Source: Cyclobacterium plantarum
Lineage (GTDB): Bacteria > Bacteroidota > Bacteroidia > Cytophagales > Cyclobacteriaceae
NCBI RefSeq assembly: GCF_011290685.1
Contig: NZ_JAANYN010000003.1
Coordinates: forward strand, 355,341 to 419,340
Reading direction: 5' to 3'
DNA: 64,000 bases
Below the pieces are notes generated by a model. That model was not told the origin of the DNA and did no database searches. It saw only the letters and a program-made list of their open reading frames with translations. This document shows, piece by piece, positions 54,311 to 63,702 of this stretch (positions within the stretch are counted from its first letter, which is position 1; every line of letters begins with the position of its first letter). Made by a program: the position numbers and the translations under genes.

Positions 54311-55543
54311 ATGATGAAAAGAATCCACTTCTATTACTTTTGTTTCTGGGTTTTAGGGTTTTTGCTGGTCGAAAATTTACCGGCACAAACCTATTTTCCA
54401 GGGAAAAATTCCTGGGAGAAAAAGGATCCTGCTGCCCTCGGGGTAAACCCCGGACGCTTGCAGGAGGCCATAGACCTGGCCATCAGGGAAGAAACTGAAG
54501 CTGATCCGAATCTAAAAATAGCCCATTACCTCAGCGGTTTTGGCAGGGAGCCTTTTGGTTACCCCATTGGCCCCATGAAAGAAAGAGGTCCGGCTACCGG
54601 GCTAATCATATACAAAGGGTATCTGATTGGGCAATGGGGAGATCCCGGCAGGGTAGACCTGACATTCAGTGTGGCCAAAAGTTTCCTGTCCACCCTGGTG
54701 GGGCTTGCTGTGGATGAGGGTCTGATCCAAAGTGAAAAAGATCTGGTGCATTCCTATATGGCGCCAATTATCCTCTACGATCCTAACCTGGCCCACCGAA
54801 ATAAATCCGATCACCTGGTGGAAGAAGACGTATTTGACTTATTCGGAACGCCACATAACCGGAAGATCACCTGGGAGCATTTGCTTCGGCAAACCTCTGA
54901 CTGGGAAGGAACCCTATGGGGCAAGCCAGACTGGGCAGACCGGCCCCGGGGAGATAGTGATACCTGGCTGGGTAGAGAGCGAAATGAACCCGGATCTGTC
55001 TATACCTACAACGATACCCGGGTGAACGTACTTGCACTGGCAGCCATGAATGTTTGGAGAAAGCCACTTCCGCTGGTACTGAAGGAAAAAATAATGGATA
55101 AAATTGGTGCCAGTCCTACCTGGAGATGGACGGGGTACGAGAATTCCTTCGTTATTATTGACGGACAAATCATGCAGTCTGTAAGTGGAGGCTCCCACTG
55201 GGGCGGAGGAATGATGATCAATGCCTATGACCAGGCAAGGTTTGGTTACCTGACCCTGCATAGGGGAGCGTGGAATGGAGAGCAACTGATTTCCAGCGAA
55301 TGGATTGCAAAATCCCTTACTCCGGGTCCCGCACAGGAGAATTATGGATTCATGAATTATTTTCTCAATACACGGCAGCGGGAAATTCCTTCAGCCCCCG
55401 AATCCGCTTTTTTCCATTTGGGAGCGGGAACCAATATGGTGTATGTGGATGAGGAACATGAACTCGTAATAGTAAGCCGATGGATCAAAAATGCCGCCAA
55501 AGCCGAACTGGTAAAGCATGTATTGGAAAGTCTGCCGGATTAA
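54311..55543 (+). CDS. Secreted serine hydrolase, beta-lactamase class C fold
   Basis: This 410-residue exported protein has a signal peptide (about 1-26, ending PAQT) and the penicillin-binding-protein/class C beta-lactamase fold. The nucleophile motif is SVAK (Ser120-Lys123). The second motif appears as YND (233-235) rather than the usual Y-x-N. A C-terminal HLG (about residue 383) replaces K-T-G. This combination is seen in esterase- and peptidase-like members, so antibiotic resistance should not be assumed. It overlaps the convergent photolyase gene by 4 bp. Confidence 0.88.
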   Translation: MMKRIHFYYFCFWVLGFLLVENLPAQTYFPGKNSWEKKDPAALGVNPGRLQEAIDLAIREETEADPNLKIAHYLSGFGREPFGYPIGPMKERGPATGLIIYKGYLIGQWGDPGRVDLTFSVAKSFLSTLVGLAVDEGLIQSEKDLVHSYMAPIILYDPNLAHRNKSDHLVEEDVFDLFGTPHNRKITWEHLLRQTSDWEGTLWGKPDWADRPRGDSDTWLGRERNEPGSVYTYNDTRVNVLALAAMNVWRKPLPLVLKEKIMDKIGASPTWRWTGYENSFVIIDGQIMQSVSGGSHWGGGMMINAYDQARFGYLTLHRGAWNGEQLISSEWIAKSLTPGPAQENYGFMNYFLNTRQREIPSAPESAFFHLGAGTNMVYVDEEHELVIVSRWIKNAAKAELVKHVLESLPD

Positions 55544-56973
55544 ACGCTCCAGTTTTCCGCAGAGACCAGGGGTATTGGGTACTCCTTTCCCAGCCTGATC
55601 CTGCCTTTTTCCAACTTTTCCTTTGATAATTGGAAAGGAATATGGACTTCAAAACCCTTCAAGGCGTTCAGCTCAGGAACCCATCGCTTGATATATTCCC
55701 CGTGTGGATCATACTTCTTAGCCTGCAAAAGGATATTGAAATAGCGGTCCTGCCGTGGATCATTTCCCACCCCTGCGATGTACATCCAATTGCCCCAGTT
55801 GCTACAAGGATCGTAGTCGATGAGCTGCTGCTCGAAATAAGCAGCTCCCCAGCGCCAATCGATTTCCAGGTCATTCACCAGAAAGCTGGCGACCAGCTGC
55901 CGGCCCCGGTTGGACATGAAACCGGTTTGGTTGAGTTCCCGCATATTAGCATCGATAAAGGGAATACCGGTTTTGCCGGCTGCCCATTTTGAAAAAGCGA
56001 CTTTGTCTTCTTTCCAATAGCCTGGCTTGTCCTGAATGCCCCCAATCTGAAAGATGCGGCTGCCATGCTTTTTGGCCATAAAGCGAAAGAAATCCCTCCA
56101 GATCAATTCGAAAATTAGCCAGTAGGTGGATTGATTTTTGGTTCTTTCTGTTTCATAGCGTTTGACTTCCCGGTAAACTTGTCTTGGAGAAAGGGCTCCC
56201 ATAGCCAGCCAGGGAGAGAATTTGCTGGAATAATCAGCCCCCATTAAACCATTTCGTGTTGCTTTATAACTGGCAAGACTGTCTGTCTGCCAGAAATAAT
56301 GGTTCATTCGTTGCAAGGCAGGGCCGGATCCACCCTGGAAAAACATGTCGCCTTTGTGGATCTGAGCTTCAATCTGTAAACCCGGTTCGACTATTTCCGG
56401 CCATGAATTCAGATGTCCCTCTGGTATTTGGGCAAAACGAACGGGTTCAGGAATCTTAACCAGCGGGCGGATCGGAGATAGTTTCTCACATTCTTTTCTA
56501 AACCTGGTAAATACTTCGGGCATCTGAGATACCGGGAATGGCAGGTCGTCAATATGGAACAGGGTACCTTGCCAGTAGCTTTCTGTGGCAATACCCTTGC
56601 TCCAGGCGGTTTTTTCCATGGCCTGCTCCACCCTTATTTCTTCTGTAGTGACTTCCTGGGAGAAGCAGATCACACCTGCCCCGGCTTTTTGTGCCAGGGT
56701 GGGTATCTCTTCTTCAGGTTTGCCATGAAGGAGCAGCAAGGTACCTCCTTTTTTCATGATTTGATCTTGCAGGTCCTGAACGGTTTCGGAAAGGAACCTG
56801 GCGCGGAAGGGACCGGTTTTTTTTAAACCAAAATCCCCCGGTCCAAATTGCCGGGGATCCAGGCAATAAACAGGTAAAACGCTCCTGGCAAGTTCCGTTG
56901 CTTTTTTAATGGTGAGATTGTCTTCCCATCTCAGGTCATTTCTCAGCCAGACTAGTGCTTTTTCATGTCGCAT
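55540..56973 (-). CDS. Cryptochrome-DASH / deoxyribodipyrimidine photolyase family protein
   Basis: This FAD-binding blue-light protein has 477 residues. The N-terminal antenna-cofactor domain begins ALVWLRNDLRWEDN. The helical FAD domain has ELIWRDFFRFMAKKHG, TGIPFIDANMRELNQTGFMSNRGRQ and the DASH-type block NWGNWMYIAGVGNDPRQDRYFN. DASH proteins repair cyclobutane dimers, mostly in single-stranded DNA, and can be photoreceptors. It starts at ATG. It is convergent with the hydrolase gene and 98 bp from the next minus-strand gene. Light-related function fits a pigmented organism. Confidence 0.92.
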   Translation of the reverse strand: MRHEKALVWLRNDLRWEDNLTIKKATELARSVLPVYCLDPRQFGPGDFGLKKTGPFRARFLSETVQDLQDQIMKKGGTLLLLHGKPEEEIPTLAQKAGAGVICFSQEVTTEEIRVEQAMEKTAWSKGIATESYWQGTLFHIDDLPFPVSQMPEVFTRFRKECEKLSPIRPLVKIPEPVRFAQIPEGHLNSWPEIVEPGLQIEAQIHKGDMFFQGGSGPALQRMNHYFWQTDSLASYKATRNGLMGADYSSKFSPWLAMGALSPRQVYREVKRYETERTKNQSTYWLIFELIWRDFFRFMAKKHGSRIFQIGGIQDKPGYWKEDKVAFSKWAAGKTGIPFIDANMRELNQTGFMSNRGRQLVASFLVNDLEIDWRWGAAYFEQQLIDYDPCSNWGNWMYIAGVGNDPRQDRYFNILLQAKKYDPHGEYIKRWVPELNALKGFEVHIPFQLSKEKLEKGRIRLGKEYPIPLVSAENWSV

Positions 56974-57071: not shown

Positions 57072-57521
57072 TTAGTTTGGCATTTTGCTGTAAAGCGGAA
57101 TGGTCAGGGCAAGAGAGGGTATATGGCTGGGAATGCCCACGGCATACTTTGGAGTATTGGTAGGTAAAGGTTTAAAGCTCATTAGCGCTGCCCTTTTTTT
57201 ATTTTTACCAGCGCTAATGAATACCGGAATACTTCCTATAGCGGCGATTCCGCCAACAACAGCCATGGCTACACCAATTCCTGTCGCCTGTTCCTCCGCA
57301 TCGGAAGCGCCGAAAAGAATGAAGTTTTCAGAAAACAGGGTACTTCCTGCAGCGACCATGGCAAGCCCTCCGCCTGCCATGATATAGCCTGTAGTCTTTT
57401 GTCTGCGGCTTTTTTCGAGATAATCTTTTTTGCTCATTTCCTGGGCACCTGCATTGATTTGGCTGCCCATTAGGAAGGTTAATATCAATACAACAGTAAT
57501 TTCACGTGTTTTCATGGACAT
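57072..57521 (-). CDS. Small exported hypothetical membrane protein
   Basis: This 149-residue protein has a signal peptide (about 1-27) and two hydrophobic, glycine-rich segments: TGYIMAGGGLAMVAAGSTLF (about 45-64) and ATGIGVAMAVVGGIAAIGSIPVFI (about 80-103). A KNKKRAAL linker and a short soluble tail follow. I recognise no domain. Two ATG starts are possible, at 57521 and 57515. It is followed by no visible terminator and lies upstream of cry-DASH on the same strand. Confidence 0.65.
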   Translation of the reverse strand: MSMKTREITVVLILTFLMGSQINAGAQEMSKKDYLEKSRRQKTTGYIMAGGGLAMVAAGSTLFSENFILFGASDAEEQATGIGVAMAVVGGIAAIGSIPVFISAGKNKKRAALMSFKPLPTNTPKYAVGIPSHIPSLALTIPLYSKMPN

Positions 57522-57845
57522 TTGGATTTAGGTAGAATTTTTAGGGTTCGCTTCTGCAATTCCAGTAAATTTACTAGCATTAGAACAAAAAAAACATGCC
57601 TTAAAAACATGATTACAAGTGATTTATATCAGTATTTTGGGTGCTGCGGAAAGGGTAGGATATTTTGGTTCAGGGAAGAAAAATATTATTTTTTCAATTG
57701 CCCACTGCTTCAGCTGTGAGCAATATAGGTCCAGTTTGTAATATTGGCATTAGCCAAACTTCGTTATCCGGAAGGAAGGTATTTTTTTCAAAATTTCCCC
57801 AAATCTCTCCCCAATATTGGCTAAAGCCTGGGTAGCGGGCATTAT

Positions 57846-57878
57846 CAATAGGATGGGGCTAAAGCCGCCATCCTATTG
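57846..57878. repeat. Hairpin D of repeat unit 1
   Basis: An 11-bp perfect inverted repeat (57846-57856 with 57868-57878, CAATAGGATGG paired with CCATCCTATTG) closes on an 11-nt loop GGCTAAAGCCG. Shorter versions of the same hairpin occur at 58075-58099 and 58304-58324. Confidence 0.85.
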
Positions 57879-57933
57879 AAGGGGACAGGTCAAAGATTAT
57901 TGATAAAAAATAATAGACAGGACCGTACTGATC

Positions 57934-57963
57934 AATTGCCTCCTGCTTCAGCCGGAGGCAATT
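57934..57963. repeat. Hairpin A of repeat unit 2
   Basis: A 10-bp perfect inverted repeat (57934-57943 with 57954-57963, AATTGCCTCC paired with GGAGGCAATT) has the loop TGCTTCAGCC. Equivalent 9-bp stems with other bases occur at 57697-57724 (one mismatch) and 58162-58189 (one G-T pair). Confidence 0.85.
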
Positions 57964-57984
57964 ATTTGGATTATTTATATCATT

Positions 57985-58051
57985 GGCTTTAGCCAAAATT
58001 TTTCCCGGAGGGCCCTTGTGCCCCAAAACTTCCCCAATTTTGGCTAAAGCC
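57985..58051. repeat. 16-bp inverted pair B/C of repeat unit 2
   Basis: The 16 nt at 57985-58000 are the exact reverse complement of 58036-58051 (AATTTTGGCTAAAGCC is the right arm), with 35 bp between them. B is itself close to palindromic, so the two arms could form either separate small hairpins or one long stem. Confidence 0.85.
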
Positions 58052-58939
58052 GGGGTCCATGAAATCTCATTCTAGGGATGGGGCTAAAGCCGCCATCCTA
58101 TTGAAAGGAGACAGGTCATTGGTTATGGGTTAAAAATAGAAAACCGGACGCCTATTACTCATTTGCCCACTGCTTTAGCTGTGGGTAAAAAAGAGGCAAT
58201 ACACATAATGGCTTTAGCCAAACACTTACACCATTTAAGGTATTATTTCAAAATTTCCCCTCAATTTTGGCTAAAACCGGGGTTTATGAAATCTCATTTT
58301 AGAGAATGAGCTAAAGCCACATTCCTATTGAGAAAAGAATAGCAATCAATTATCACTCAATTGACCACTGCTTTAGCCCAATCCTTTCACTGAGAAGCTC
58401 TCAGACAATAACTTATTTAACAACTTTCGCATTATACCCGGTAAAGAATTTCCTTTTAGGGGAGAATATGAGATTAAAAAAGATTAACCGAACCATCTGA
58501 TTTCATGATGGATAGATTGGGTACTACATCTTCAAATGCCTATATGCTGGTGTGGAGGAACGAATTATTATTACTAAGCCCCTCATTTCACTTCATTTAT
58601 TCCAGATTTGGGCAGTTTAATAATTCTCTTTTAATTCATAATAAATTTAAATATAAACAGAATAAATTAAGTTTAATTTATAAATTTTTATTTTTCAATA
58701 AATATAACTTTTCTAGATTTGCCTAATCTCAAAAATGATTTGTATCATTATATAAACTACGTAAAAATAGGTATATATGTCTAAATTTCAATTTTTTATA
58801 TGACTAATTCAATCATTGAAAAAATAAAAAAAAACAAAAATTAGTCTAATTGTTAATATTTTATTATTATGGATTTTGTTTCTTTATTATAAGAACCTGA
58901 TAGTTTATGTTTAATTTCAATTAACCTAATCCCAAACTA

Positions 58940-61900
58940 ATGAAACAACCCAGACTAAAACAATTAAGGTCGATAATAAAATTATTTTCAGTTGTTATTA
59001 TTATCCAATGCGTTGCAATTGACCGCATTTATGCGGAAAGTAGAAAAAGTAAGGAAAATCATTTTGAGAAAGTGTTCACGCATGTTTCACTGTTTCCGCG
59101 AAATCTATATAGTAAAGTGGATGTCATCGAGTCTGATTTGGTATTTAATTCAGAGACAATGGTAGATGTAACCGTTTCAGGCGTAGTGACCGACCAGGAA
59201 GGACAACCGATTCCAGGCGTGACAGTTTCGATTCCCGGTACTGGGATCGGAACGGCCACAGATTTGGATGGGAAATATTCAATCACGGTTCCGGAAGGAT
59301 CAACTTTGGTTTTTTCTTTCATCGGGTTCGAATCTCAGAGTATTGAAATAAATAACCAAACAGAAATTAACGTCTCATTGTCGGAAGATATCGCTTCCCT
59401 GGATGAGGTAGTTGTAGTAGGTTATGGATCCGTTAATCGGGAAAATCTTACCAGTGCCGTGAGCTCATTAAATGAAGAGGATTTTGTTGCGGGCACTGTT
59501 TCACCGTTGATGGCCATTCAAGGAAAGGTTCCTGGATTAAGTATTCAATCTACCAACGGTGCCGATCCCAATTCCGGAGTGTCTATCCAGTTAAGAGGGG
59601 TCAATTCAGTGAATGCCTCACAAGGACCTTTAATTGTTATTGATGGGGTGCCAGGCGGGGATATTAATACTGTTGTTAAGGAAGATATCGCCTCCATTGA
59701 AGTATTGCGTGATGCTTCCGGTGCCGCTATTTACGGTACTAGGGCCTCCGGAGGGGTTATTCTTATTACCACCAAGTCTGCTATTGCTGGAGAGTTATCT
59801 GTTAGTTATACCGGAGAATTGTTTGCTGAAACCGTGCGAAGATATAACGAGCCTTTGGGAAGGGATAGGTTCCTCGAACAAGGGTTGGGAGACGATTTAG
59901 GACACAATACGGATTGGTTCGACGAGGTAACCAACGATGTTCCCATCAGTTACCGAAATGTAATCAGCTTAAGTGGTGGTGTGGAAGATGCGAAAATTCG
60001 CGCTACCATAAGTAATCGGAGTGCCAAAGGCCTGGCAATTGGGGCACAGCGAGATGAAATCCAGGCAAGGATAAATACAGATTTTAACCTGTTCGATGGA
60101 TTTTTAAGAATAACCAATAACCTTTCCTATAGTGAGAGACAATCTGAATTTTCAAATAATGACATTTTCAGGATGGCTTTGCAGCTTAACCCGACCGAAA
60201 CACCCTATGATCCCACAGAGGCGCACGGGCTGAATGTCTGGACCGGAGGTTATGACTGGTATAATCCGGTAGCCGATATTCGATTAAGGACCGATCAGCG
60301 AAAATATTCTTACCTCCTGAATACCACTACTTTTCTGTTTAATCTTTCCGATAATGTTTCCCTTACCGCTCGTTATTCGATGAATAATGACGACAACTAT
60401 GGCACCTATTGGAGATCCGCCCAGCATAAAACGTCATTAGATGAAGGAGTGGCTGGATATGCCAGCCACAGTTACGGGGAATCAAAGGACAATACGTTTG
60501 AGACATTTCTTACTTATGACCAGATCTTTGACTTACATACCCTTAATGCTGTAGGAGGCTATAGTTTTCAAGAATTTAACGGACAAGGATTTTCTGCAAA
60601 TAATTCGGATTTCGCTGTAGATGGCATAGAAGAACATGACTTGGGAACTGGTAGATTTTTAGCCGAGGGAAGGGCTGGTCTAGGCTCTTATAAAAACCCC
60701 CGAGTCAGGTTGATGGCATTTTTTGGAAGGGTGAACTATAGCTTTGACAACAGGTACCTGATCACAGCCAGCTTGAGACGTGAGGGTTCATCGAAATTCG
60801 CCAAAGGCAATAGGTGGGGAAATTTTCCGGCCCTTTCTATAGGGTGGAACATCCACAATGAACCCTTTATGCAATGGCAGACTTGGTTTACCAATCTAAA
60901 ATTTCGAGCTGGTTATGGTGAAACCGGCAATGAAGGTTTCGCACCTGGTGTAGCTACCAGAATGTACGGTCCGGATACCTGGTGGTTGATGAATGGCGAG
61001 TGGAGAAGGACTTATGGAGTTTCTCATAACCAGAATACTGATTTAAAGTGGGAAACCAAGAAAGAATACAATATCGGTATTGACTTTGCCATTTTGGATG
61101 GAAATTTATCTGGTAGGTTCGATGTTTTTCAACGAGACGTGGATGATTTGATTTATGATATCTCTGTTCCGCAACCACCGGCTATTCACGATAAAACGAC
61201 CATGAATGTAGGGGTCTTACGAAATACAGGCTGGGAAGCAGAACTTACTTGGAATGCTGTTGATAATACCAATTTCCAGTATGTAACTACATTAATCGGA
61301 TCGGCCTATAAAAGTGAACTCGTTAGTCTTTGGGGTAATCAGACATTTTGGGATCGAAAGGGTTTTCCTGCACCGGGGAGTCCGGGAAATGCTGTCAGAC
61401 TGTTCCCGGGAGAGCCCATCGGTCGATTCTTTGTCTGGGAACATGCTGGATTTACCGAGACAGGAGATTGGATGTTGAGAGGAAGCGATGGAGAGGTGTT
61501 TGACGTTACTGAAAGAACCAAAACCAATGAAGATAAAAAATTTATCGGAAATGCCATCCCGAAGTTAATCTTGGCCTGGAATAACCAATTTAATTTTGGA
61601 AATTTTGACGTAAATGCTTATTTCCGCGGCTGGTCAGGCCATGATATTTTTAATATGCCTAATTTTTACTATGGAATACCACTGGAATCAAGAAATGTCC
61701 TGGTAGAAAATTTTGAAGAACAAAGACATATCACCGGAGAAAAAGAGTTGAGCAATTACTGGATTGAGGATGGTGATTTTTTGAAGCTGGATGTGCTTTC
61801 TCTGGGATATACATTTAATTTTCAAGGAGACAGAGGAAACAGGCATGTAAAAGGTCTGCGCGTATATGCAACAGGGCAAAATTTATTTGTGCTTACCAAT

Positions 61901-62014
61901 TATTCAGGCCTAAACCCCGAAGTAAATATCAATGGCCTGGATCCCGGGTTTGAAGAGAGAGCCACCTATCCACAAACCCGAACTTTTATGTTAGGTGTTC
62001 AAGCTAATTTCTAA
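58940..62014 (+). CDS. SusC/RagA-family TonB-linked outer-membrane receptor
   Basis: This 1024-residue SusC-type transporter imports large nutrients, often glycans, together with its SusD lipoprotein. It has a signal peptide (about 10-32) and an unusually long charged linker (about 33-74). The CarboxypepD_reg-like domain (about 75-155, GVVTDQEGQPIPGV) is followed by a plug with the SusC signature VVVVGYGS and SIEVLRDASGAAIYGTRASGG. The large barrel ends in an aromatic residue (QANF). It starts at ATG, and the susD gene follows 17 bp after the stop. The substrate cannot be told from these two genes alone. Confidence 0.96.
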   Translation: MKQPRLKQLRSIIKLFSVVIIIQCVAIDRIYAESRKSKENHFEKVFTHVSLFPRNLYSKVDVIESDLVFNSETMVDVTVSGVVTDQEGQPIPGVTVSIPGTGIGTATDLDGKYSITVPEGSTLVFSFIGFESQSIEINNQTEINVSLSEDIASLDEVVVVGYGSVNRENLTSAVSSLNEEDFVAGTVSPLMAIQGKVPGLSIQSTNGADPNSGVSIQLRGVNSVNASQGPLIVIDGVPGGDINTVVKEDIASIEVLRDASGAAIYGTRASGGVILITTKSAIAGELSVSYTGELFAETVRRYNEPLGRDRFLEQGLGDDLGHNTDWFDEVTNDVPISYRNVISLSGGVEDAKIRATISNRSAKGLAIGAQRDEIQARINTDFNLFDGFLRITNNLSYSERQSEFSNNDIFRMALQLNPTETPYDPTEAHGLNVWTGGYDWYNPVADIRLRTDQRKYSYLLNTTTFLFNLSDNVSLTARYSMNNDDNYGTYWRSAQHKTSLDEGVAGYASHSYGESKDNTFETFLTYDQIFDLHTLNAVGGYSFQEFNGQGFSANNSDFAVDGIEEHDLGTGRFLAEGRAGLGSYKNPRVRLMAFFGRVNYSFDNRYLITASLRREGSSKFAKGNRWGNFPALSIGWNIHNEPFMQWQTWFTNLKFRAGYGETGNEGFAPGVATRMYGPDTWWLMNGEWRRTYGVSHNQNTDLKWETKKEYNIGIDFAILDGNLSGRFDVFQRDVDDLIYDISVPQPPAIHDKTTMNVGVLRNTGWEAELTWNAVDNTNFQYVTTLIGSAYKSELVSLWGNQTFWDRKGFPAPGSPGNAVRLFPGEPIGRFFVWEHAGFTETGDWMLRGSDGEVFDVTERTKTNEDKKFIGNAIPKLILAWNNQFNFGNFDVNAYFRGWSGHDIFNMPNFYYGIPLESRNVLVENFEEQRHITGEKELSNYWIEDGDFLKLDVLSLGYTFNFQGDRGNRHVKGLRVYATGQNLFVLTNYSGLNPEVNINGLDPGFEERATYPQTRTFMLGVQANF

Positions 62015-62031
62015 AAGAAAAAAATAAGACT

Positions 62032-63702
62032 ATGAAATTGATAAAATATATAATTATTCTATTTAGCGTCATTGCAACAAGTTGTTCTCTGGATGAAGTA
62101 TGGTATGACAGGGTGGTGCCCCAAACCTTTTTCAAAACGGAGGGGGATGTTTTATCAGCGCTATACCGGCCTTTTACCCATGCAAGATGGTATCTTACCG
62201 GAGATCGCTGGATAGCACAGGAATTTTCTGCAGACCAATTTGCACGATCAACAAAAGGAAGGCATTGGTATGACGGAGGTCGTTATGCCCGATACCAACA
62301 CCATGAATGGACGCCGGACGAGTCCCAATTGTTTGGAACCTGGAGAGGAACCCTGCAAGGAGTGGCATTAGGGTTAGATGTTAAACAGGATTTGGGTCGC
62401 CTGGATTACGCAAGCCTTGCGCTATCAGAAGAAGATAAAGCCGCACATCTAGGCCAATTGGATGCCTTGATTGCATTTTTCTATTTGAGAGGACTTGATT
62501 TTTTTGGGGGGCTACCCATATTTACCAGCCTGGATCAGGAAGATGTGCCCAGAAGTACCGATAGGGAAACATTCAATCATATCGAAGCACTGTTACAACA
62601 GGCCTTGATTGATTTGGCAGTAAAGGAACCAGACGCACCTCAGGAAGGAGCAATTACAAAAGGAGCTGCTGCTGTAATGTTGGCGAGATTGTATTTTAAT
62701 GCGGAAGCCTACATCGGTGAACCCATGTATGATGAGGCAGCCAGGATCTCTGAGGGAATTATTGCCAATGAATATGGGACTTACAGCCTGGATCTGGACT
62801 GGAAAGGACCCCACGACTTCGAAAATCACCTATCTCCGGAGATTATATGGTCGATACCTTCTGAATTCAATCGCCTGGAATACACACACTACGGGCACAT
62901 GTACCATTATAATTCCCGGGTTTACTTTGATGTGGACTTAGGTTCTAATAATGGCACGCACTTACAGCCATCAAGAAAACCAGATGGAACTTTGTATACA
63001 GAGGAGTTTAAATTGGGATCGCCCTACGAAAAGTTTGAGGATACGGATCTTAGGAAGAAGCCTTTCAGGTATTTGGGTTCGGGTAATTATGAAGGCATGT
63101 TTTTGGTAGGTCCGCAGGTTTCTCCCATAGATGGTGAGCAGGTAATAGGCAATGAGGAGTATAATGGCCAACCCCTTGTATTTGTCGACCAGGTCGGAAG
63201 GTTTTCAGAACTGGGGTCAACCTTTGAAACTATTGATGAGTTGCCTTCTAATATCGGTGCAGGTGAGGAAAATACCGGTGTAAGAATTGTGAAAATCCCA
63301 GTGCCCTCTAGTCAAGACCTTAATTTGAGGTGGGCTGCTGATCATCCTGTTTTTAGATTGGCAGAAGTATATCTGATGTTAGCTGAGTGTCGTCTAAGAA
63401 TGGGGGAAGCCTCTGCCGCAGCAGAGTTGATAAATGAAGTGCGACAAAGAGCTTTTGAGGGCGGCGTTGACCCGAATCCGGCTACGGCCGAAAACCTGGA
63501 CCTTTACCGTATAGCCGATGAATGGGGAATTGAGTTTTTAGGGGAAGGTAGAAGAAGGACCGATCTGATAAGGTTGGGCTTTTTCACTACCGAAAGGTGG
63601 TGGGATCACACCCCCTCTAATTCGGATCATTTGAACCGGTTTCCCGTGCCTACAGAGGCATTATCGGCAAGTAATGTTTTGGAGCAAAATCCCGGGTATT
63701 AA
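62032..63702 (+). CDS. SusD/RagB-family nutrient-binding lipoprotein
   Basis: This 556-residue surface lipoprotein forms the lid and substrate-binding part of the SusCD complex. The lipobox ATSC is at Cys18. The helical tetratricopeptide-like fold is visible in LGQLDALIAFFYLRGLDFFGGLPIF, the central AVMLARLYFNAEAYIG, and the C-terminal PVFRLAEVYLMLAECRLRMGEASAAAELINEVRQRAF, all typical of RagB/SusD. The ending FPVPTEALSASNVLEQNPGY is also characteristic. It pairs with the preceding SusC gene and is followed by a terminator. Confidence 0.96.
   Translation: MKLIKYIIILFSVIATSCSLDEVWYDRVVPQTFFKTEGDVLSALYRPFTHARWYLTGDRWIAQEFSADQFARSTKGRHWYDGGRYARYQHHEWTPDESQLFGTWRGTLQGVALGLDVKQDLGRLDYASLALSEEDKAAHLGQLDALIAFFYLRGLDFFGGLPIFTSLDQEDVPRSTDRETFNHIEALLQQALIDLAVKEPDAPQEGAITKGAAAVMLARLYFNAEAYIGEPMYDEAARISEGIIANEYGTYSLDLDWKGPHDFENHLSPEIIWSIPSEFNRLEYTHYGHMYHYNSRVYFDVDLGSNNGTHLQPSRKPDGTLYTEEFKLGSPYEKFEDTDLRKKPFRYLGSGNYEGMFLVGPQVSPIDGEQVIGNEEYNGQPLVFVDQVGRFSELGSTFETIDELPSNIGAGEENTGVRIVKIPVPSSQDLNLRWAADHPVFRLAEVYLMLAECRLRMGEASAAAELINEVRQRAFEGGVDPNPATAENLDLYRIADEWGIEFLGEGRRRTDLIRLGFFTTERWWDHTPSNSDHLNRFPVPTEALSASNVLEQNPGY

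Follow-up and report, generated by a model that had tools for sequence, protein, structure and literature searches.

Genome comparisons link a REP-like hairpin array of Cyclobacterium plantarum to Y1 transposases assigned to subclass 1.2

What is the block of structured repeats that lies in front of a susCD operon in Cyclobacterium plantarum, and does any enzyme account for it? The repeats occupy an intergenic region of a 64,000-nucleotide stretch of the genome (contig NZ_JAANYN010000003.1, positions 355,341 to 419,340), which we call the window. A first-pass annotation of the window proposed a family resembling repetitive extragenic palindromic (REP) sequences or miniature inverted-repeat transposable elements (MITEs), a structured non-coding RNA, or a binding array for a nucleoid or regulatory protein. 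Our analysis suggests that the array is very probably a tandem cluster of non-autonomous copies of a REP-like element, and that the full element encodes a transposase of TnpAY1 subclass 1.2. In the Bacteroidota genomes examined, the sequence comparisons link a transposase group thought to lack repeats to a REP-like family.

The array consists of three units and a decayed fourth copy of the first element. Each unit contains the elements A, B, C and D in the same order; the copies of A start at 57694, 57932, 58159 and 58357 (spacings of 238, 227 and 198 nucleotides), and B, C and D are present three times each. The outer hairpins A and D are long, and the inner hairpins B and C are short. All six exact copies of the decamer GGCTAAAGCC in the window fall inside the array, at 57819-58219, against 0.13 expected, and six copies were reached in none of 100 shuffles of the window. 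Folded as DNA, the 692-nucleotide array strand has a z-score of -5.1, with equal stability in 0 of 20 shuffles. The element positions, the shuffles and the fold confirm the first-pass description of three units and a partial fourth with a constant order of elements. Other parts of that description need revision. The decamer or its complement was said to lie in every element; it is exact in 6 of the 13, and the other seven carry variants (GCTTCAGC and GCTTTAGC twice each, and GGCATTAGCC, GGCTAAAACC and AGCTAAAGCC once each). A and B carry GCTTTAGC or a variant of it, and C and D carry GCTAAAGC or a variant, with the orientation switching in pairs (A and B reverse, C and D forward) instead of alternating element by element as had been stated. 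C1 and C2 alone fold no better than shuffles, and the susC-proximal (right) end of the array is decaying, as A4 has no hairpin and C3 and D3 are weak. The elements are listed below, with matches to the covariance model R1; the A1-B1 doublet (G000:C31:413029-413101) is matched by R1 and is also part of its training set.

57694-58385, no strand: whole array, three A-B-C-D units and decayed fourth A
57694-57728, minus: A1 outer hairpin (type 2) with TCAAT end; A1-B1 matched by R1
57744-57757, minus: B1 inner hairpin, GGCATTAGCC variant
57810-57832, plus: C1 inner element GGCTAAAGCC, lone fold not above shuffles
57845-57879, plus: D1 outer hairpin (type 1) with CCTATTGA end; outer stem of 12 bp; bulged base
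57932-57966, minus: A2 outer hairpin (type 2)
57983-57996, minus: B2 inner hairpin GGCTTTAGCC; A2-B2 doublet matched by R1
58032-58055, plus: C2 inner element GGCTAAAGCC, lone fold not above shuffles
58076-58105, plus: D2 outer hairpin with ATTGA tail; R1 matches the C2-D2 doublet
58159-58190, minus: A3 outer hairpin (type 2)
58209-58220, minus: B3 inner hairpin GGCTTTAGCC
58259-58283, plus: C3 decayed inner element (GGCTAAAACC), without stable hairpin
58299-58330, plus: D3 weakened outer hairpin
58357-58385, minus: A4, partial, cannot fold

A blastn search of the array against its own genome returned 51 matches, so the repeats are more than a local duplication. The genome holds 110 exact copies of GGCTAAAGCC against 19 of the reversed pattern, and the family comprises arrays on contigs C31, C36, C37 and C22 together with scattered doublets. 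The copies are largely intergenic: 118 of the 119 cores in four array loci fall outside open reading frames (ORFs) of at least 150 residues. The repeat recurs as a doublet of ~73 nucleotides, made of one inner and one outer hairpin (46 doublets), and it exists in two types, type 1 with the end CCTATTGA and type 2 with the end GGCAATTGA. A covariance model of 38 doublets matches at least 85 sites in this genome and at least 10-73 in each of 11 other members of the genus; these counts are lower bounds because 150 candidates were scored per genome. The dispersed copies bear out the REP/MITE-like candidate of the first-pass annotation. Its impression that similar sequences occur in other Bacteroidota was also correct, as the decamer is present in all 148 genomes sampled from the taxonomic family and the core lies beside tnpA in named genomes. 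No match to the array was found in a plasmid collection.

Two other repeat regions of this genome were observed. A 7-kb array on C37 (L058 3354-10335, C37:27.3-34.3 kb), part of which has units 495 bp apart, contains no tnpA match, is interleaved with three genes of 380-408 residues that are lipoprotein-like by eye, and looks recently amplified. A distinct family of intergenic repeats, matched many times within the genus, lies at L066 170-960 (C11:896.7-897.5 kb); of three other tnpA loci compared with it, only L062 has a common short stretch, of 65 nucleotides.

A transposase gene is found inside a sister array. A search of the genome with the Pfam Y1_Tnp model gave six matches, the best of which, tnpA at C36:52905-53342, lies within the C36 array and encodes a Y1/HuH transposase of ~146 residues. 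The first-pass statement that no transposase explains the array holds for the window, where tblastn with TnpA gave no match at an E-value of 0.05, but not for the genome. The four strong Y1_Tnp matches all carry the motif Y---Q--HH, the signature of TnpAY1 subclass 1.2, whose proteins have ~148 residues with HuH and WQ motifs (Quentin et al. 2018, PMC6006769, in its available text). Named Bacteroidota genomes gave at least 571 relatives, and the 80 best of them were fetched. Of these 80 loci, 78 are stop-free; Y---Q--HH is present in 77 of the 78, and HuH and WQ in all 78. We note that the assignment to subclass 1.2 is based on motifs and length and not on a tree with the reference proteins of PMC6006769. 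The protein scores 63.7 bits with the NCBIfam IS200 model NF033573 (cut-off 55) and 29.5 bits with the REP-associated model NF047646 (cut-off 80). For a relative with 95% identity, the predicted structure (pLDDT 90) is closest to ISDra2 and IS608 TnpA, followed by TnpAREP, and the predicted model contains the Y1 HuH fold and the active-site residues. The ratio dN/dS against three Cyclobacterium relatives is ~0.24, 0.09 and 0.09. Among the 20 genomes of the family with a listed match of at least 51% identity, 18 have a single one and two (G031 and G080) have two; the several near-identical full copies per genome typical of IS200/IS605 were not seen for this tnpA. The gene was found in four records of the plasmid collection and two of a phage collection, every one below 60% identity. 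A tree of the 78 TnpA proteins is poorly resolved, and two labels taken from record titles need eight changes each, which shows neither strict vertical descent nor frequent transfer.

The cores accompany this gene in other genomes. The 148 genomes of the family gave 22 listed matches of at least 51% identity to the C36 TnpA, and in all 20 that were fetched (L069-L087 and L094) the core GCTAAAGC lies within 300 nucleotides of tnpA, compared with 4 of 10 more distant loci. The named-genome loci, four of which are the same DNA as loci of the family sample, have a core at this distance in 76 of 80 cases (shuffled mean 1.95), and separating them by flank similarity leaves 46 of 49 contexts with a core beside tnpA. 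As published, subclass 1.2 genes lack adjacent REP or terminal structures; this clade departs from that description. Core density drops ~65-fold past 1.25 kb from tnpA. In the 76 loci with 300 nucleotides on both sides, a core is found upstream in 46, downstream in 66, on both sides in 40 and on neither in 4. Genome-wide decamer counts are higher where a close tnpA is present (median 23 in 20 genomes of the family, against 12 in 128 without, p = 7e-5; 21 against 12 when the genus of the window is left out, p = 4e-4), but the reversed-pattern control differs slightly as well (10 against 7, p = 0.04), every one of the 148 genomes contains the decamer, and model counts within the genus overlap.

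The hairpins are placed around tnpA in a regular way. Downstream of the gene, the closest core points forward in 62 of 63 cases; upstream, the closest one is reversed in 34 of 38. For the outer hairpin we used the 65 loci in which an inner hairpin could be recognised downstream, which excluded 15 of the 80; an outer hairpin of at least 6 bp follows in 40 of 65, compared with 27 of 244 control stretches, and it is followed by [AT]ATT[CG]A in 28 of 40, compared with 43 of 1834 control 13-mers. The usual layout is an outer-inner hairpin pair, tnpA, and an inner-outer hairpin pair, with the pairs inverted relative to each other and ATT(C/G)A as the conserved tail. The A-B-C-D order in the window is this outer-inner-tnpA-inner-outer order without the gene between B and C. 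One locus with a distant TnpA (36%; L096 1489-2123) departs from this inverted layout of the main clade: GGCTAAAGCC and a CCCCGGGTTAAAACCCGGGG hairpin flank the gene with identical orientation on the two sides.

The stems of the doublets show compensatory changes. In the 38 doublets, 88.5% of paired cells are standard pairs (69.6% when shuffled), a measure that is favoured because the consensus structure was drawn from the same 38 sequences; covariation is 0.442 against 0.136 shuffled, and in 8 of the 11 outer-hairpin pairs both partner positions show changes. A covariance model had been suggested at first pass; the one built here is matched by doublets in this genome and 11 other genus members, and the outer stems covary. 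A GT[AG]G foot was not seen by eye in the doublet alignment; some type 2 stems hold GTAG internally.

In two dispersed doublets the 3' end of tnpA survives, as its last 22 and 25 codons respectively, positioned and oriented as expected; these doublets are apparent internal-deletion derivatives of the tnpA element:

L057 9443-9508: tnpA 3' remnant, 68%
L067 1494-1568: tnpA 3' remnant, 76%

An isolated copy on C32 has no clean empty site but has a tnpA remnant. One empty site was found, at C11:897.9 kb, where a 348-nucleotide insert (L066 1264-1611) is missing in G149 and G154. The insert is bounded by terminal inverted repeats of 10 bp (TTGAATTAGG/CCTAATTCAA) and has an A-B doublet inside, with no clear target site duplication. 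Because the insert exceeds the doublet in length and brings terminal repeats of its own, this site does not define the ends of the element. Units related to the insert occur in G149 (L261), G154 (L262) and C35 (L260).

These observations are consistent with the following scheme. The full element would be [outer-inner hairpin]-tnpA-[inner-outer hairpin], and loss of tnpA would leave A-B-C-D. TnpA may bind the hairpins when the DNA is single-stranded, for instance at a replication fork, and its tyrosine may make the cut at the ATT(C/G)A / TCAAT ends, which are conserved; both site and strand are putative. It would then move or copy gene-less elements in trans, and the resulting arrays could expand or contract by slippage or unequal recombination.

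Several observations weigh against this explanation. The 80 named-genome loci were not chosen at random, and in four of them (L117, L126, L140 and L157) the exact 8-mer is missing within 300 nucleotides of tnpA; other or variant palindromes are visible there by eye. Within the genus, doublets persist in seven genomes without a close tnpA, and covariance-model matches overlap between genomes with one (26-85 in 5 genomes) and those without (10-48 in 7). Two of the five covariation measures are not above shuffles (double-change pairs, 146 of 500; further pair types, 251 of 500). No tnpA remnant was found in the window, so the descent of its array from the element is judged by anatomy only. The terminal repeats of the C11 insert mean that another enzyme may have moved that doublet. 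No transposition event by this TnpA was caught, and we infer its movement.

The best-surviving alternative is that the host maintains the repeats as sites for protein binding or DNA topology, with tnpA there by chance. The neighbourhood of the window array bears on this:

55540-56973, minus: photolyase gene phr, which also lies beside the array in the examined sister species
57072-57521, minus: small hypothetical gene, with a tblastn match in G067 and none in the six other fetched loci
58940-63702, plus: susC- and susD-like genes; this susC is beside the array in one (G067) of seven relatives

We examined seven of the 11 other genus members, picked because phr matched, with 4.2-5.2 kb fetched from each. 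The array adjoins phr in all seven, which, together with the covarying outer stems and the persistence of copies in genomes without a close tnpA, would be expected of sites kept for the host. However, the number of exact cores beside phr changes from 1 to 28 between sister species (9 in the window), the C36 and C37 arrays sit among other genes, tnpA remnants lie next to two copies, and the core adjoins tnpA in nearly all of the separate contexts. We therefore consider host maintenance improbable. The cores of G149 repeat with a period of 443-444 nucleotides, suggesting growth by tandem duplication. The array had been presented as preceding a SusCD operon, and a regulatory role specific to SusCD was considered and rejected. 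Six of the seven sister stretches keep the array beside phr without this SusCD operon, and only G067 has this susC (G156 has a weak 26% susC match farther from the array, and the best listed matches in G148, G150 and G151 cover the susC portion alone, at 75-77%). A SusCD-specific role is thus unlikely. A recent single insertion at the window site was likewise rejected, as no empty site was found and at least one doublet is present there in all seven relatives examined. The array is probably a passenger in the intergenic region.

Still less likely is a plain MITE moved by an unrelated transposase and lying around tnpA by chance. The terminal repeats around the doublet in the C11 insert favour it, yet among the window and 14 loci of this genome with copies both exact repeats occur only in L066 (L068 has one and the window none), and inverted placement beside subclass 1.2 tnpA recurs in many Bacteroidota. 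A structured RNA or susC leader is very improbable in spite of the strong folding (computed as DNA) and the covariation, because one array holds both orientations, the array stops ~550 nucleotides ahead of the susC start, the arrays of relatives are not tied to SusCD, and the four Rfam matches in the intergenic gap are all below the gathering score and judged to be chance. Nothing specific was found for either the structured-RNA or the protein-binding candidate of the first-pass annotation.

The REP-like tnpA element can be compared with several known systems. Its enzyme shares its fold and active-site residues with IS200/IS605 (subclass 1.1; IS608, ISDra2), and the ATT(C/G)A tail is reminiscent of the short target sequences used by these insertion sequences (IS). 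Unlike IS200/IS605, it has about one tnpA copy per genome, and its end hairpins are inverted to each other, as those of IS608 are not known to be. It resembles class 2 REP sequences and bacterial interspersed mosaic elements (BIMEs) with TnpAREP (RAYT), for which the available texts describe a low-copy Y1/HuH gene flanked by palindromes that recur intergenically in alternating orientation, often in tandem clusters (PMC6006769, PMC8266576, PMC2817692). By anatomy the element resembles a REPtron, but two class 2 features are missing: the TnpAREP type, as this TnpA has Y---Q--HH instead of Y..NP, and the GTAG foot, as no GT[AG]G foot is present and the unit is a hairpin pair, inverted across the gene. 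Motifs, length, distribution in Bacteroidetes and low copy number agree with subclass 1.2 as covered in the available text of PMC6006769, whereas the entry there of REP "no" and no IS properties differs from the conserved hairpin pairs and dispersed copies of this clade. Like the palindrome-associated transposable elements (PATEs) of Haloquadratum, the gene-less copies are transposase-free with near-terminal palindromes, and some PATEs are core-deletion derivatives of IS605-type transposons, sometimes with C-terminal remnants; PATEs are archaeal, and inverted hairpin pairs or BIME-like arrays are not described for them in the text available (PMC3119063). TIRtrons/TIRYT are also tyrosine transposase genes flanked by inverted repeats able to form dispersed families, but 20 of 26 examples in the accessible part of the report are subclass 2.1 proteins, and many of the repeats have GGGGWSAS (PMC3733652). 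RepRanger, a 2025 survey, counts REP-like palindromes in three genomes of Bacteroidota, of which two are Flavobacterium, and its available text does not name "RAYT"; some of the present palindromes may be among those counted (PMC12306157). A Chryseobacterium paper names RayT genes, with no palindromes in its available text (PMC11194056). In the accessible open-access literature there was no report tying REP-like elements to subclass 1.2, and the decamer, in both orientations, led to a single REP paper, on a Haemophilus REP. Judged against that literature, what appears new is a REP/PATE-like two-hairpin element belonging to a TnpAY1 subclass 1.2 clade.

Hairpins also surround more distant enzymes. 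In 33 other related loci (30 in genomes of the family, 3 in this genome; the motif is in frame in 29), perfect hairpins of at least 8 bp occur at 1.46 per kb within 300 nucleotides of the gene and at 0.17 per kb past 600 nucleotides, an 8.6-fold difference; such a near hairpin is present in only 14 of the 33 loci, and in 11 of the 29. The palindromes differ among these loci (GGTTTAAACC, GGGTTGAAACCC, GGGCGTAGCCC). On C5 of this genome (L062 1219-3253), a second subclass 1.2 tnpA (2067-2528) lies among the palindromes GCTCCGTAGGAGC, GTGCCGTAGGCAC and CCGCAGGTTAAAACCTGCGG, and a listed ORF (1342-1812) overlaps these repeats. A 258-nucleotide segment next to the C5 enzyme is matched 14 times in this genome; nine of the matches lie off C5, and C3, C22 and C31 are among the contigs matched. 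At C11:183 kb, a 28-nucleotide inverted repeat (93%; L064 941-968 and 1782-1809) flanks another subclass 1.2 tnpA, and a blastn search of this genome with its 166-nucleotide upstream flank matched only that flank and its own downstream flank.

It is possible, and we propose it tentatively, that the TnpAs of subclass 1.2 form a lineage of their own across Bacteroidota, one of domesticated transposases that spread repeats and use hairpin pairs instead of the single GTAG-footed hairpin. A genome could then hold several enzyme-palindrome pairs without common sequence; four such enzymes with different flanking palindromes are present here. The link between the hairpin pairs and the main TnpA clade would account for a group of intergenic palindromes in Bacteroidota. 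It would also provide an independent comparison for the origin of REP/RAYT systems from IS200/IS605-like enzymes and for the shift to low-copy, selected genes. For one clade of a HuH subclass formerly without a substrate, the hairpin pairs are a candidate substrate. The candidate occurs in named, culturable strains of Flavobacterium, Algoriphagus and Cyclobacterium, and its binding, cleavage and mobility are therefore directly testable.
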